Positions 1,280 through 57,274 of a stretch of DNA of 64,000 nt are shown here, piece after piece (within the stretch, counting starts at the first letter, position 1; every line of letters begins with the position of its first letter). The translations under genes were made by a program, and so were the position numbers. Source of the DNA: Bryum argenteum (lineage: Eukaryota; Streptophyta; Bryopsida; Bryales; Bryaceae); assembly GCA_037043015.1 (NCBI GenBank), contig CM073327.1, forward strand, positions 2,586,727 through 2,650,726, written 5' to 3'. Under the pieces are notes generated by a model. The model saw only the letters and a program-made list of their open reading frames with translations. It did no database searches and was not told the DNA's origin.

Positions 1280-1547
1280 TTAACCCCTAAAGATCCAAGA
1301 AACCCGAATCGGCTTTATGGGATTTCCGTTGGGAAAGAATTCAGTCAACTTTGACCATTATAATCTCAAAATTCGAAAAAAATTAACGGCTCAAAATTGA
1401 CATTTGAGTAAAAGGTCAAGTTAATTTTAAGATCCTATGGTTGGATCTTCTAATTAATTTGTAGATTGGTTTTCTTTGGGCTTGAAGTAGAAGAAGGTTC
1501 CTTTTGATAATTTTGACAATTTTGTATCAAGGATCTTCAGGGGTTAA
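1280..1547 (+). mobile_element. TTAA-family A MITE, copy 1
   Basis: A 268-bp non-coding element counting one TTAA at each side. It starts TTAACCCCTAAAGATCC and ends GGATCTTCAGGGGTTAA, an imperfect terminal inverted repeat. Inside are the two shared boxes, AATCTCAA at 1362-1369 and ATCCTATG at 1432-1439, exactly 70 bp apart. It is closely related to the copy at 30219-30486. Confidence 0.85.
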
Positions 1548-6415: not shown

Positions 6416-6783
6416 TTAACCCTTAAACGCCCATGGGGTCTAAAACGGGCAGCCCAAAATTGGATAACAACATCTTTTGGACTTGGGCATCATGAATAGT
6501 GCACTTTTTGAACTTGGGCACCATGAATGAACCAATCAATGATGAGCTTGCAACCTCCTACAAGGTTATGTACAACCCCAACCTACCTACCACAATCCTT
6601 TCAAACCATAAAACCATACATACAAATTGTGATTTGAATTGTACAATTTCACTTTTAAATGCATCACAAGACGGTGACCAGTTTGACATCAAAATATAAG
6701 TGAAAAGTGATTACAGTGAGAGCTCCAGAGCAGATTCTGTTGGAATCAAGCCCCTCGGGCTTGCTTGGGCGTTTAAGGGTTAA
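6416..6783 (+). mobile_element. TTAA-family B MITE, copy 1
   Basis: A 368-bp element. Its ends are TTAACCCTTAAACGCCCA and TGGGCGTTTAAGGGTTAA, a perfect 18-bp inverted pair if TTAA is counted. The interior is non-coding and nearly the same as 26506-26863 and 41987-42347, both of which lie in the opposite orientation. The low divergence suggests this is the youngest TTAA family here. Confidence 0.9.
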
Positions 6784-10731: not shown

Positions 10732-10998
10732 TTAACCCCTAACTTTCCTTAAAACCCGAAACATGTTTCAGAGGTTCCCTAGGAGAAAAACTCAACCAAC
10801 TTTGACCATTATAATCTCACAAATGAGGAAGAATGAACGGTTCAAATTTGGTATGTGAGAAGAATGCCAAGTGAACTTTGAGATCTTACCGTTGAATCTT
10901 TTAAATAATGCTTAGATTGAGATATTTTGAACCTAATCTAAAGGAAGGTCAAATCTTATGACTCAGACGGTTTTGCAACAAGGAAATTTAGGGGTTAA
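10732..10998 (+). mobile_element. TTAA-family A MITE, copy 2
   Basis: A 267-bp element flanked by TTAA on both sides, starting TTAACCCCTAACTTTCC and ending AAATTTAGGGGTTAA. The boxes AATCTCAC (10813-10820) and ATCTTACC (10883-10890) are 70 bp apart. Confidence 0.88.
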
Positions 10999-19359: not shown

Positions 19360-19373
19360 CCCCCCCCCCCCCC
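19360..19373. repeat. Poly(C) run
   Basis: Run of about 14 C inside the hAT element. A second such run lies at about 20365-20378. Confidence 0.85.
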
Positions 19374-20050
19374 TAGCCTTTAGGGGTTAAATAAACAACC
19401 ACCCATTTGGATTCAAATAAAATTTGCTTAGATACTTAAATACGTAAATGGTTAGCAACTATAATATTTTTCATTATCATAAGTCAATGTGAATATATTG
19501 CATATTTTATCAAAGCATGACATTGTACCCCTAAAGAATTCCAAGTGATTCATGGATAGTTAAGATTCATATGAACAATGAGGGGTTATTTATAATAAGT
19601 TCTATTTTTCATGTGTGTCCAAGCCCATAAAATCTTTTGAGTAAAACATTCCCTTCTATGAAACTAAAATCTTCCCGACATTCCCTTGACAAATCGGCAT
19701 GTGGATTAATGCCCTGATTTAGGTTGTAGGTACAATGTCACGTACCTAAAAATAGAAATTTTTTAAATGCAAGCAAGAGGAGGAAGAAGAAGTGAGAAGT
19801 GGAGAGATGAGGGAGTGTTGGTGAGTGAGAGAGGAAGAGAGGAGCGCAAGACACCGACTGGGATGTCGACCGGTCGCTAAAAAAATAAAATAAAATAAAA
19901 TAAAATCTAAAATTGGAATCCGATCGCTCCGTCTAATCGGTCGGCCAGGCCATCAGCGTTTTTTTTTTTTTTTTTTTTTTCTTTCTCGAATTCCGGTCGG
20001 GCCGTGTGACCGGTCGACCGCCAACCGCTCAGACGGCCAGGCCATCAGCC

Positions 20051-20092
<42 letters not shown>

Positions 20093-20432
20093 CCCTTAAA
20101 ATCCGGTCGGGTTGTCCGACCGGTCGACCGGTGACCGCTCAGACCGCGTCCGACCGTTTGGTCGGCCGTTATCGATCTGACGGTTGTGGACCTTTGAATC
20201 AAATCTCATGGTCACCACAACCTTCGGTCACCTCGACCGGGGGCCGGTTGGAGCGAATTTTCTCGGTCGCTCTAAAGAAGATCAGATTTGAACGGCTTAA
20301 ATGCAAGCTCCAAAAAGATTTAATGGTTGAAAATTTTATTTTTGTCGTAGTAATTCCAATTTACCCCCCCCCCCCCCGGCGGACGTCCGTCCGACCAAAA
20401 GAACATAAAAAACGTCCATATTGACATCCCTG

Positions 20433-26505: not shown

Positions 26506-26863
26506 TTAACCCTTAAACGCCCAAGCAAGCCCGAGGGGCTTGATTCCAACAGAATCTTCCATGTACTCAACTTTTCACTTATATTTTGATGTCAAACTGG
26601 TCACCATCTTTTGATGCATTCAAAAAGTGAAATTTCACAATTCAAATCACAATTTGTATGAAGGATTTTGTGCTTTGAAAGGATTGTGGTAGGTAGGTTG
26701 GGGTGGTACATAACCTTGTAGGAGGTTGCAAGCTCATCATTGATTGGTCCATTCATGATGCCCAAGTTCAAAAAGTGCACTATTCATGATGCCCAAGTCC
26801 AAAAGATGCTGTGATCCAATTTTGGGCTGCCCGTTTTAGACCCCATGGGCGTTTAAGGGTTAA
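26506..26863 (-). mobile_element. TTAA-family B MITE, copy 2
   Basis: A 358-bp copy in the opposite orientation to 6416-6783, with TTAACCCTTAAACGCCCA and GGGCGTTTAAGGGTTAA ends. Near-identical over its length. Confidence 0.92.
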
Positions 26864-30218: not shown

Positions 30219-30486
30219 TTAACCCCTAAAGGTCCAAGAAAGCGGAAAACGCTTTTTGGAATTTCCGCAGGGAGAAAATTCAGCCAACTTTGACCATTAT
30301 AATCTCAAAATTGGAGAAAAATTAACGGTTCAAATTTGACATTCGAGAAAAGGGTCAAGTTAACTTCAAGATCCTACGGTTGGATCTTCTAATCAATGCT
30401 TAGATTGAGTTTCTTTGGGCCTGAAGTAGAAGAGGGTTCTTTTTGATAATTTAAGCAATTTTATATCAAGGACCTTTAGGGGTTAA
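30219..30486 (+). mobile_element. TTAA-family A MITE, copy 4
   Basis: A 268-bp well-preserved copy: TTAACCCCTAAAGGTCC at the left and GGACCTTTAGGGGTTAA at the right, a perfect 17-bp inverted pair. The boxes AATCTCAA (30301-30308) and ATCCTACG (30371-30378) are 70 bp apart. Confidence 0.92.
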
Positions 30487-41986: not shown

Positions 41987-42347
41987 TTAACCCTTAAACG
42001 CCCAAGCAAGCCCGAGGGGCTTGATTCCAACAGAATCTTCTCTGTAGCTCTCACTGTAATCAACTTTTCACTTATATTTTGATGTCAAACTGGTCACCAT
42101 CTTATGATGCATTCCAAAAGCGAAATTTTACAATTCAAATCACAATTTGTATGTATGATTTTATGGTTTGAAAGGATTGTGGTATGTAGGTTGGGGTTGT
42201 ACATAACCTTGTAGGAGGTTGCAAGCTCATCATTGATTGGTTCATTCATGGTGCCCAAGTTCAAAAAGTGCACTATTCATGATGCCCAAGTCCAAAAGAT
42301 GTTGTGATCCAATTTTGGGCTGCCCGTTTGAGGCGTTTAAGGGTTAA
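41987..42347 (-). mobile_element. TTAA-family B MITE, copy 3
   Basis: A 361-bp copy with TTAACCCTTAAACGCCCA at the left and GGCGTTTAAGGGTTAA at the right. Same orientation as 26506-26863 and near-identical to it, with a small deletion before the right end. Confidence 0.92.
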
Positions 42348-48028: not shown

Positions 48029-48984
48029 TTAACCCCTAAACGTCCTTGGGGTATTTTTAGCCAAAAACTCATTTTCAAAAAAAGTGATACAGATGAAAAT
48101 AAAGATAAGCTATTCAGATCTCAACTGTAGAAACTTGTAATAGACTTGTCATTGGCCTTTCCCTTTGCTTAGAGTTTGGTCTATATGAATTCAAATCGGA
48201 ATGACCTTGCCCGAGAGTTTTTATCTCTAATATAGTCCCTCTATTGCTCACTCACATTTTTAAAAAGTATAATATTTGGACTTTTATCCTTGGAAGGTCT
48301 AAGGGGTACAAAACCATCTTCAACTTTCTCCCTAAAAAGCACGTTGGTAAAAGATGTTTTTAGATTCTGCTCAAGATGGTCCTATAGAGCGGTTAGTATA
48401 AGATGTTTTACAAAATAATTCAGATTGGTTCACAAATTACGAGATCTAAGAATTTGGTATGATTTGGGCACTTAATGATTCCATGCAAAATGGACTTCAA
48501 CCAAGTCACTAAAACCTCACATAATCAAAAATACATTATACATCGCAGTTATGTTACAAACTTAGTTACCTTCAATTAGTCTGTTTGTGATGTAAGCATT
48601 GGAGATATACACAGTGATTTATAAGGCTTCCAATGGGCGGAGGTAAAGAAAAAAGTGGAAGGTATTCATTACGTGGGCAAGTTCAAAATAAAGGGTTGCC
48701 TACTTAGTCCCTTTATTTGACTTGTGTATTGACAATTATTGAAAGGGACATCTTGTTGAAATTTTGAATGAATCATAGTGCAATCTCACAACAACTTTTT
48801 GTTTTTTTTTTTTGTTTTTTTTTTAAAAGTGTAATTGTTAATAAATAATACACCCTTTCCAACTCATTTTTGATGCAGAAGTATAAATATTGATATATTC
48901 TTACAACTAAAGTTCACTTTAACTAAGTAAATTATAAATACCCTTGTGTTACTTGATTCTATGGTGAGCACTTTGAGGGGTTAA
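48029..48984 (+). mobile_element. TTAA-family C element, diverged
   Basis: A 956-bp span from TTAACCCCTAAACGTCC to TTTGAGGGGTTAA. The left 150 bp match 52850-53000 (AAACTTGTAATAGACTT and neighbouring words). The 70-bp box pair is not preserved cleanly here. It is non-coding. Confidence 0.75.
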
Positions 48985-52641: not shown

Positions 52642-52849
52642 TAAACAATCAAAGGAGAAGTCTACCGGAGGAGTCCATTGGAAAAGTCCACATGTGAAGG
52701 AAAGTTCACCAGATGGTTAAAGTTAGCTATGATAAATACCTTATTTTACATGGCGATGGATATACATGGTAAAAACCCCATCTCCTAATCAACCATGATA
52801 CTTAAAATTCAAATACAAAAATGTATTGTTCAAGAATAATTTTTAACCC

Positions 52850-54805
52850 TTAACCCCTAAACGCCCCAGCCTATTTTTAGCAGAAAAGCACATTTCCATA
52901 GAAATCGTCATAGATGAAAATGAAGAGAAGCTATTAAGATCTCAACCGTACAAACTTGTAATAGACTTATCGAAGATCATTTGGACCAAAATTTGAGTCA
53001 TGAGGCCTTATAGATCGGGAGATCATAACATATTAATACTAAAAACAAATTGCAAAATTTCTTCATTTTCACTTTGAGGTGGAAATGCTACCAATATACC
53101 TATTGCAATGAAAAAATCACCAACTAGAAAGATGTTCACCTTCATCTTAATAAGTCCTTTACCCAACAAAAATTCATCAAAAAAATTTCTTGGCTCAAAT
53201 AAAAGCCATGCAATGGTAAAAAATCGCAAAAAATTTTACAAAGGAAAATTAGTCCAAAACTAGACCCTCTGCATTCAATTTCATGCCCTATCTTCAAAAC
53301 ATCTTCGATCTTGTTAAGGTTTCTACCAATTAGACTAGACTCTAATTGGAGGCCATTCCAAAAAATTAAGTTGAAATCCAACGGTGGATGAAGGAGATAT
53401 AGCTCCTCAAATATCATCCATTTTCTCACTTTATTTGTTGACAAAACATCATTGCAAATCCAATAGTAAAGTCATTTGGATCAAAAAACTTCTCACTACA
53501 AAGTTGTTAGGAATCACCTTAACCCCTAAACGCGCCAGCCTAGTTTTAGCAGAAAAGCACATTTCCATAGAAATCCTCATAGATGAAAATCAAGAGAAGC
53601 TATTAAGATCTCAACCGTACAAACTTGTAATAGACTTATCCAAGATCATGTGGACCAAAACTTGAGTCATGAGGCCTTATAGATCGGGAGATCATAACAT
53701 ATTAATACTAAAAACAAACTGCAAAATTTCATCATTTTCACTTTGAGGTGGAAATGCTACCAATATACCTATTGCAATGAAAAAATTACCAACTAGAGAG
53801 ATGTTCACCTTCATCTTAATAAGTCCTTTACCCAAAAAAATTCATCAAAAAATTTCTTGGCTCAAATAAAAGCCATGCAATGGTAAAAACGCAAAAATTT
53901 TACAAAGGAAAAATAGTCCAAACCTAGACCCTTTGCATTCAATTTCATGCCTTATCTTCAAAACACCTTCGATCTTGTTAAGGTTTCTACCACTTAGACT
54001 AGACTCTAATTGGAGGCCATCCCAAAAAATTAAGTTGAAATCCAACGGTGGATGAAGGAGATATAGCTCCTCAAATATCATCCATTTTCTCACTTTTTCT
54101 CTCATGACAAAACATCATTGCAAATCCAATAGCAAAATCATTTGGATCAAAAAACTTCACACTACAAAGTTGTTAAGAATCACCTTAAGATCATGACCAT
54201 GAAAAAAAAAAATCATGAAAACTATATTTAATTTCACATAATTGGCTTGCAATGGTAATACATGCCCCATGCTTGAAAACCCAAAAGCAAGTGCTGTCTT
54301 CACTAAAGTGCATTCCATTAATTCATACTTTATTGTATGGGCTTGCAAATTTTACAACGCAAACTAGACTTGATTTGGAACCTAACCCAAGTGATTTCAT
54401 CCAAAACGGACCTCGGATGAAGAAGATATGGCTATTCAAAGTTGCTGCCTTCCATCCAAAATGTCGTTTTTCGACATTCGGCGCGTTTAGGGGTTAAGAT
54501 CATGACCATGAAAAAAAAATCATGAAAAACTTTTTTTAATTTCACATAATTGGCTTGCAATGGTAATACATGCCCCATGCTTGGAAACCCAAAAACAAGA
54601 GCTGTCTTCACTAAAGTGCATTCCATTAATTCATACTTTATTGTATGGGCTTGCAAATTCTACAACACAAACTAGACTTGATTTGGAACCTAACCCAAGT
54701 GATTTCATCCAAAACGGACCTCGGATGAAGAAGATATGGCTATTCAAAGTTGCTGCCTTCCATCCAAAATGTCGTTTTTCGACATTCGGCGCGTTTAGGG
54801 GTTAA
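52850..54805 (+). mobile_element. TTAA-family C element, outer copy (interrupted)
   Basis: The left half is 52850-53518 and the right half 54498-54805, each bounded by TTAA. Left end TTAACCCCTAAACGCCCC; right end GGCGCGTTTAGGGGTTAA. Between the halves sits a second full copy (53519-54497). The boxes CGTACAAA (52947) and GGGAGATC (53017) are 70 bp apart. Confidence 0.92.
53519..54497 (+). mobile_element. TTAA-family C element, inner copy
   Basis: A 979-bp full element with perfect 18-bp inverted ends, TTAACCCCTAAACGCGCC and GGCGCGTTTAGGGGTTAA. It lies inside the outer copy at the TTAA that this inner copy still keeps intact at 54185-54188 (CACCTTAAGATCATG). The boxes at 53616 and 53686 are 70 bp apart. 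Short open frames at 53845-54105 and 54157-54497 are not conserved as proteins. Confidence 0.95.
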
Positions 54806-55409
54806 GCGGGCCGAATGTCGAAAAACGACATTTTGGATGACACCAACTTTGGAGAGCCATAACTTCTTCATCCGGACTCCGTTTTGGACGAAATCACTTG
54901 GGTTGGGTCCCAAATCAAGTCTTGTTCATGTAATAGAAATCTCAGACCCATACAATGAAGTATGAATTAATGGCATGCATTTCAGTGACAGCAGCCTAGT
55001 TTTAGACATTTTTTCCTTTGTAAAATTTAGGGCAGTTTTCACCATTGCAGGGCCATAATTTGCACAAAGAAATTTTTCTCATGGTTTTTTTTTGTTCAAG
55101 GATGCTACTGAGATGAAGGTGAACAACATTCTAATTGGTGACTTTTTCATTGCAATAAGTCTAATGGTAGCATTTTCACTTTAAAGTGAAAATCATGAAA
55201 TTATGTGATCATTTTTGAGTATTAATACATTATGATCTCGCAATCTATGAAGCCTCATGACTCAAAATTTGACCCACATGATGTTCAATATGTCTACGAA
55301 AAGATTGTACGGTTGAGATTTGGATAACACACTTTTACCTCCACCTATGACAATGCTTTTGAGGATGTGTTCATTTTACTACAAATGAGTCAAACCATTT
55401 AGGGGTTAA
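54802..55409 (-). mobile_element. TTAA-family C element, inverted partial copy
   Basis: About 608 bp in reverse orientation, sharing the TTAA at 54802-54805 with the outer copy and ending CATTTAGGGGTTAA. Its first 30 bases form a perfect palindrome with the outer copy's end. The boxes (ending 55241 and 55311) are 70 bp apart. Confidence 0.85.
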
Positions 55410-56510: not shown

Positions 56511-57274
56511 TTAACCCCTAAATGCCGAAGCGCATTTTGGACCTCCAACACCAAAAACAACAATTTTTGACCACCTTGTCGAGATTAAGATGAGGCTAAA
56601 ACTTTTAGTGTTATATGAAACTTTAGATCACAAGATCTTGAACCTGATTACACTCATGGTCACCATCTCAAATCTTAATTGTTGAATCTACACTACATTT
56701 GAAATCATAAAGCTCAAATTTGATATAAAACTTTCTAGGAGCATTTTTTGAAGAACATATTCTACTGTTGGCAAGGGAGACTTGATGATTGTTACCTCAA
56801 ACATTTTCAATTAATCTATTTCCACGTAGATAAGTAAGTTGAGAACACTTATGCAAAATTTCAAAGACTGTTTATGTTTTTTTAACCTATATGGAGATTA
56901 ATTTTCAGTAGAAGGTACATAAATAACAACATGCTAAAACTTGAATAATGTTCAAAAATTTGGGTCAAATAAAAAGTGAATGCTAAGAGGTTGCGGCTAT
57001 GAGTTTGTAAATTTTATTATTGAAAAATAATGTGAGTAACATTTGTTACAAACATTTTTATGTTTTCTTTTTTTTGAACATTTTTTGAAAGAATGAAATA
57101 TTTTACCCTCATTGGGCTTGAAACTAAGATTTGCGCGATAAAATTCCTAAACTCAAATTTTGCTTTGCAAATTTTATTACAAGTAGTATATATTATTGCA
57201 AAATATAGCCCAAAATAACAAAATTAGACCCTTCACCGGGACCATTTTGGCTTTCTTAAGCACTTAGGGGTTAA
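56511..57274 (+). mobile_element. TTAA-flanked element, further family
   Basis: A 764-bp span from TTAACCCCTAAATGCCG to CACTTAGGGGTTAA. The interior differs from families A-D and the 70-bp box pair is not found. It is non-coding. Confidence 0.75.

Follow-up and report, generated by a model that had tools for sequence, protein, structure and literature searches.

A three-level nest of elements assigned to the piggyBac superfamily in the moss Bryum argenteum

The well-studied members of the piggyBac superfamily come from animals, and piggyBac is in use for seamless gene insertion and excision. Plants also appear in print. Passages of earlier work place PiggyBac among the superfamilies present in every taxonomic group studied (PMC4438587) and among the superfamilies of plants (PMC10794571), name plants as piggyBac sources in a summary (PMC10813416), and give, in the PiggyBac line of the C-fern repeat table, 1,230 copies and 122 kb, or about 100 bp each (PMC6890710). 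In the parts seen, the main text of PMC12550479 and of PMC9033089 contains neither the word piggyBac nor TTAA, and the 'piggybac' match shown for a Niphotrichum paper is the word piggybacking. In the literature searched, with subscription papers and repeat databases outside it, we found no description of an autonomous piggyBac element of a land plant; libraries of moss repeats may well have annotated such elements already. An earlier note on this DNA had supposed that piggyBac-like elements are not a described major group in land plants. The superfamily is in fact listed in print, although the passages concerned describe no plant element. With PiggyBac in print for plants, the moss elements form a new lineage within a known superfamily.

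We analyzed a 64-kb stretch of the genome of the moss Bryum argenteum, referred to below as the window, together with related copies in the rest of the assembly. Its elements are almost certainly non-autonomous members of the piggyBac superfamily, moved by piggyBac transposases encoded in many genome copies. They resemble animal piggyBac-type MITEs in being short and non-coding, in their TTAA duplications and in having ends in common with a transposase-encoding element, and differ from them in their CCC(C/T)TAAA ends, their plant host and the presence of 14,192 exact ends. They share TTAA duplication, short repeats starting with CCC and a DDD transposase of the DDE_Tnp_1_7 type with piggyBac (PDB 6x67/6x68) and Myotis piggyBat (PDB 9c0f), and are unlike both in the moss host, in the aspartate spacings of the two moss transposase families (90/116 and 86/116 residues) and in belonging to a clade without named animal members. 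Whereas the plant PiggyBac of PMC4438587, PMC10794571 and PMC6890710 is a list entry or a count in the passages concerned, transposase, ends and duplications could be traced in the moss.

As the earlier note had proposed, a full inner copy (53519-54497; 971 bp plus one TTAA per side) splits an outer copy (52850-53518 and 54498-54805) that has TTAA at both outer edges (Table 1). In the alignment of the two, 928 of 968 ungapped columns were identical and 8 were gap columns; the inner copy is thus a sister of the outer copy and not its direct product. The uninterrupted target, CACCTTAAGATCATG, is present within the inner copy at 54181-54195, one base to the left of the position first given (54182-54196), and with the TTAA on both sides of the inner copy it makes up the empty and filled site pair that had been claimed. 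The same sequence was found without any mismatch in 33 of 39 fetched genomic copies.

The self-nesting is real, but its depth had been put at two copies, and a third, older layer makes it three. The outer copy was inserted in a TTAA that belongs to a terminal repeat of a third copy, which lies inverted. The flanks of the outer copy are TTAACCC-TTAA on the left and TTAA-GCGGGCCGAATGTCG on the right; joined across the insert (CCC-TTAA-GCGGGCC), they give the end of an opposite-strand copy whose terminal repeat contains TTAA. The far end of this third copy is at 55405, followed by TTAA at 55406-55409. When joined, it measures 607 bp, some 365 bp less than the inner copy, and alignments of 320-390 bases put it at 78-82% identity with members of the family. 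The nested positions give the order of insertion: the third copy, then the outer copy into the TTAA of its terminal repeat, then the inner copy into a TTAA of the outer one. A terminal repeat of the form CCCTTAAACG, which offers such an internal TTAA, is also present in the elements at 6420, 26510 and 41991. Each element carries several TTAA (the inner copy has nine), so that copies are targets of later copies, resulting in the three-level nest. The nest illustrates how an element with many copies of its target site can turn into a landing ground for itself, even within its own end. The inner copy had no ORF of 130 or more amino acids and did not match the family-1 transposase described below. 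A stem-loop by the 3' end was rejected as a special hairpin end, its fold being no better than that of shuffled sequences (z -0.75; 47 of 200 equally good).

Table 1. Coordinates of the nested copies and of other elements in the window
Feature	Coordinates	Strand	Remark
260-bp related element, TTAA both sides, ends CCCCTAAAGATCCA / CCCCTGAAGATCCT	1284..1543	.	
360-bp related element, TTAA both sides, ends CCCTTAAACGCCCA	6420..6779	.	TTAA within repeat
259-bp related element, TTAA both sides	10736..10994	.	interior partly 73% to family-1 right end
350-bp related element, TTAA both sides, ends CCCTTAAACGCCCA	26510..26859	.	
260-bp related element, TTAA both sides, ends CCCCTAAAGGTCCA/T	30223..30482	.	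family-1 right end matches at 73.5% across 117 bp (E 3.5e-13)
353-bp related element, TTAA both sides	41991..42343	.	
948-bp candidate element, TTAA both sides, diverged ends (11/14)	48033..48980	.	
TTAA flanking third (oldest, inverted) copy, left	52843..52846	.	
First three bases (CCC) of third copy's terminal repeat	52847..52849	-	continues CCC-TTAA-GCGGGCC beyond nested insert
TTAA, left duplication of outer copy	52850..52853	.	originally within third copy's terminal repeat
Outer copy, left part	52854..53518	+	terminates at CACC of target
TTAA, left duplication of inner copy	53519..53522	.	
Inner copy, 971 bp, terminal repeats CCCCTAAACGCGCC / GGCGCGTTTAGGGG	53523..54493	+	
Intact target CACCTTAAGATCATG within inner copy	54181..54195	+	empty site
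TTAA, right duplication of inner copy	54494..54497	.	
Outer copy, right part	54498..54801	+	
TTAA, right duplication of outer copy	54802..54805	.	
Third copy, main part	54806..55405	-	
TTAA flanking third copy, right	55406..55409	.	
756-bp candidate element, TTAA both sides, ends 11/14	56515..57270	.	

The window is rich in related ends. With at most one mismatch, TTAACCCCTAAA had 30 matches against 0.53 expected, and none of 100 shuffles reached 30. Eight further TTAA-flanked elements were paired, their ends agreeing at 11 to 14 of 14 bases, and the lowest agreement (11/14) was that of the elements at 48033 and 56515. Counted with the third nested copy, they amount to nine, in line with the earlier figure of at least nine other TTAA-flanked elements in the window. 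The 356 bp that close the family-1 element aligned at 72% identity with the left 355 bp of the element at 56515 (E 4e-44), and the family-1 end region matched several of the 260-bp window elements. No match to the family-1 transposase and no Rfam match were found in the window.

Since TTAA is palindromic, the nested pair alone cannot separate duplication of TA, TTA and TTAA. To that extent the pair would also suit another superfamily that favors TTAA as an extended target, such as PIF/Harbinger (TTA/TAA) or Tc1/mariner (TA). The flanks of other copies bear on this reading. For 39 copies taken with their flanks from a homology listing (40 of 6,486 candidates scored), the flanks were TTAA/TTAA in 34, a doubled 4-mer other than TTAA in three (L044, CTAG/CTAG; L045, CTAA/CTAA; L047, ATAA/ATAA), and decayed at one end in two (L042 and L046). 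Genome-wide, CCCCTAAACGNCC ends with a first target base other than T (VTAN) occurred at 87 places, and 30 of these loci were cut out, the partner end being selected on end similarity alone. A partner was recognizable at 23 of the 30, and 16 of these 23 had the same 4-mer at both ends (7 CTAA, 6 ATAA and 3 CTAG); one of the 16, L091, is L045 of the 39-copy set. In the seven unequal pairs, TTAA stood opposite CTAA (4), ATAA (1) or GTAA (1), and in the last pair ATAA stood opposite TTGA. Later mutation or a wrong partner may account for these seven.

In the doubled CTAG, CTAA and ATAA, both outer bases were copied with the target, and duplication of TA, TTA or TAA is therefore excluded. Judged from these flanking sequences, the duplication is 4 bp long and centered on TTAA, as first proposed and as in piggyBac. 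Neither the 3-bp TTA/TAA duplication of PIF/Harbinger nor the 2-bp TA duplication of Tc1/mariner was found, and the transposase lying between CCCCTAAACG-type ends belongs to PF13843, so that an origin in either superfamily is highly improbable. CTAA and TTAG are among the piggyBac target variants in animals, according to a passage of PMC10813416.

For 72 of 73 paired elements, the two flanks were joined and compared with fetched DNA in search of empty sites. Two further paralogous empty sites were recognized, each with a single TTAA: the counterpart of L065 (e10) was identical at 124 of 124 positions and that of L020 (e46) was 93.5% identical. The remaining alignments, mostly of diverged repeats and several without TTAA at the join, were not counted, and an empty site for L083 was discounted because the matching sequence is its own flank. 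In the C2:22562458 region (L003, L065 and L066), the filled site and the 124/124 empty site lie close by each other in inverted relative orientation.

A profile search of the genome for the DDE_Tnp_1_7 transposase domain (PF13843) gave at least 116 matches, all above the cut-off, with a best E of 7.4e-82 (116 of 775 candidates scored); none of 14 control genomes had a match. Two families with CCC-type ends encode a piggyBac transposase with three aspartates. The short terminal inverted repeats start with CCC and have the form CCC(C/T)TAAA...TTTAGGG. These matches and the two elements traced to matching ends support the piggyBac-type identity read at first from duplication and ends.

Kolobok and Sola3 elements also duplicate TTAA. 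Elements of either kind would use the same target, and Kolobok has been treated in PMC9587614. We nevertheless give this origin almost no credence: both traced transposase-encoding elements have DDE_Tnp_1_7, which argues against a Kolobok transposase in these two, and family 1 matches the piggyBac and piggyBat structures by sequence. Under the piggyBac assignment and the mechanism known for that superfamily, the transposase would bind the element ends, cut at TTAA via hairpin intermediates, and insert the element at another TTAA with no base lost.

The reference copy of family 1 (C8:13521756-13527448; L109 and L110) is a 5,693-bp CCCC...GGGG element whose 14-bp repeats read CCCCTAAAGGCCCA and which is flanked by ATAA at either end; at a copy on C4, the left end that was read had TTAA. 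Its transposase matched PF13843 with E 1e-75. When 5,101 bases of L109 were used as the query (29 of 4,246 candidates scored), at least 29 near-full matches, the C8 copy included, all rounded to 100% identity over about 4,950 bp, and one fragment was 72% identical. This near-identity indicates, at the level of sequence, that family 1 is the product of a recent amplification, a burst of 5.7-kb copies. Among 100 listed of 533 places with the TTAACCCCTAAAGGCCCA end, 14 pairs were spaced at 5.68-5.70 kb and 26 at 250-255 bp; one terminal repeat is thus common to full-size and short elements. Four of the 14 long pairs enclose a transposase among the PF13843 matches listed. At C2:1907221-1918618, two full-size end pairs lie side by side with one TTAA in common, and this single TTAA implies that one of them inserted into the TTAA bordering its neighbor.

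Family 2 (C2:14853138-14859102; 5,965 bp including both TTAA) has TTAACCCCTAAACGTCCC at each end and a 666-codon open frame within the 2,001 internal bases that were read in addition to the two ends. Its catalytic part is 41% identical to that of family 1 (163 of 401 aligned residues) and matched PF13843 with E 5.6e-55; the first 333 codons alone had no Pfam match. On C1, an end with TTAACCCCTAAATTTCCTTGA (L113, C1:2041560-2041650) stands 2.6 kb away from a further PF13843 match, which hints that there may be a third kind of terminal repeat served by a transposase of its own. The transposase at C1:2037893 has TTAACCCCTAAATTTCC on one side, and on the other no end was seen in the 601 bp examined.

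By sequence, family 1 matched the structures of piggyBat (9c0f, E 3.7e-28) and piggyBac (6x67, E 4.8e-25). The three aspartates lie at LTIDE, TMDNY and RGVDVADQ, and their columns have D in 71 of 72, 69 of 69 and 65 of 66 sequences with a letter in the column. The moss spacings fall outside the ranges of 78-85 and 98-113 that a passage of PMC10813416 gives for seven animal clades. In a midpoint-rooted tree of 70 proteins retained from 72, both moss families fell in one clade of 31 members (support 0.99). This clade contains no named animal protein, its other 29 members being sequences without an organism name. Eight transposase relatives had an organism name among the 70 relatives and 120 listed of 231, and all eight were animal. 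In the family-1 copy fetched, a cysteine-rich stretch, read by eye, lies downstream of the catalytic ORF in other frames, and a cysteine-rich domain is present in several relatives from the database, P0050 and P0051 among them. This tail may be joined by splicing, or the near-identical copies may be moved by a transposase made elsewhere.

The 971-bp family is tied to a piggyBac transposase by a 42-bp match: the first 42 bp of family 2 were 88% identical (E 4e-9) to the 3' end of seven of its 39 copies (L036, L040, L041, L043, L044, L046 and L047). CCCCTAAACGTCCC was found at both ends in six of the seven and at one end in L046. The inner copy itself has the repeat CGCGCC and only short matches to family 2 at its ends, so its link to family 2 runs via these CGTCCC-ended relatives, which are 92-95% identical to it. 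Because the homology is confined to the terminal repeat and about 28 bp at one end, and because CGCGCC differs from CGTCCC, a different, unseen piggyBac lineage may mobilize the 971-bp family instead, a serious possibility which we nonetheless hold to be clearly the less probable one. No transposase-encoding element with CCCCTAAACGCGCC ends was found at the loci and neighborhoods of CGCGCC ends that were examined: 30 loci cut around such ends had no match to the family-1 transposase in 1.5 kb on each side, and none of the 116 listed PF13843 matches lay within 15 kb of 56 CGCGCC-ended places (from 100 listed of 111). With 116 of 775 transposase candidates scored, however, absence near these ends means little, and the family-2-like end in 7 of 39 copies speaks for mobilization by family 2. 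When the 116 listed transposases were compared with 83 of the 87 non-TTAA ends, there was one pair, 4.8 kb apart, with the end facing away.

The exact end TTAACCCCTAAA occurs 14,192 times in 258.8 Mb as against 172 for the reversed pattern, corresponding to about 7,000 elements if the ends pair. TTAACCCCTAAACGCGCC, TTAACCCCTAAAGGCCCA and TTAACCCCTAAACGTCCC had 111, 533 and 887 occurrences, respectively, and their reversed controls none. A chance origin of the excess was rejected by the shuffles and the reversed patterns. The assembly consists of contigs C1 (44.1 Mb), C2-C10 (34.6-16.8 Mb) and C11 (7.0 Mb). In two Hypnales mosses, the sex chromosomes are the smallest of the genome, according to a passage of PMC10619864, and the small C11 would fit this pattern.

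The surprise lies in the host, the scale and the youth of these elements, and the traced transposase is also notable. A wider reading is that mosses host a plant piggyBac lineage apart from animal piggyBac, which is a major DNA transposon here and is still moving, including by a near-identical burst, and that this is the first system native to land plants with autonomous and non-autonomous partners traced. We put this forward tentatively, giving it somewhat less than an even chance. A native, very young moss family is a natural system for testing how plants tolerate and silence piggyBac, whether it arrived by horizontal transfer, and whether plant genetics could make use of a plant-adapted piggyBac.

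Elsewhere in the window, an ORF at 19894-20424 translates to long phenylalanine runs and, with a G-run near ~19365-19380, has the look of a simple repeat. The window also has a plant-type R2R3-MYB frame, named by eye, and a gene for a LysM protein whose named plant relatives are exclusively from mosses (Physcomitrium and Ceratodon).
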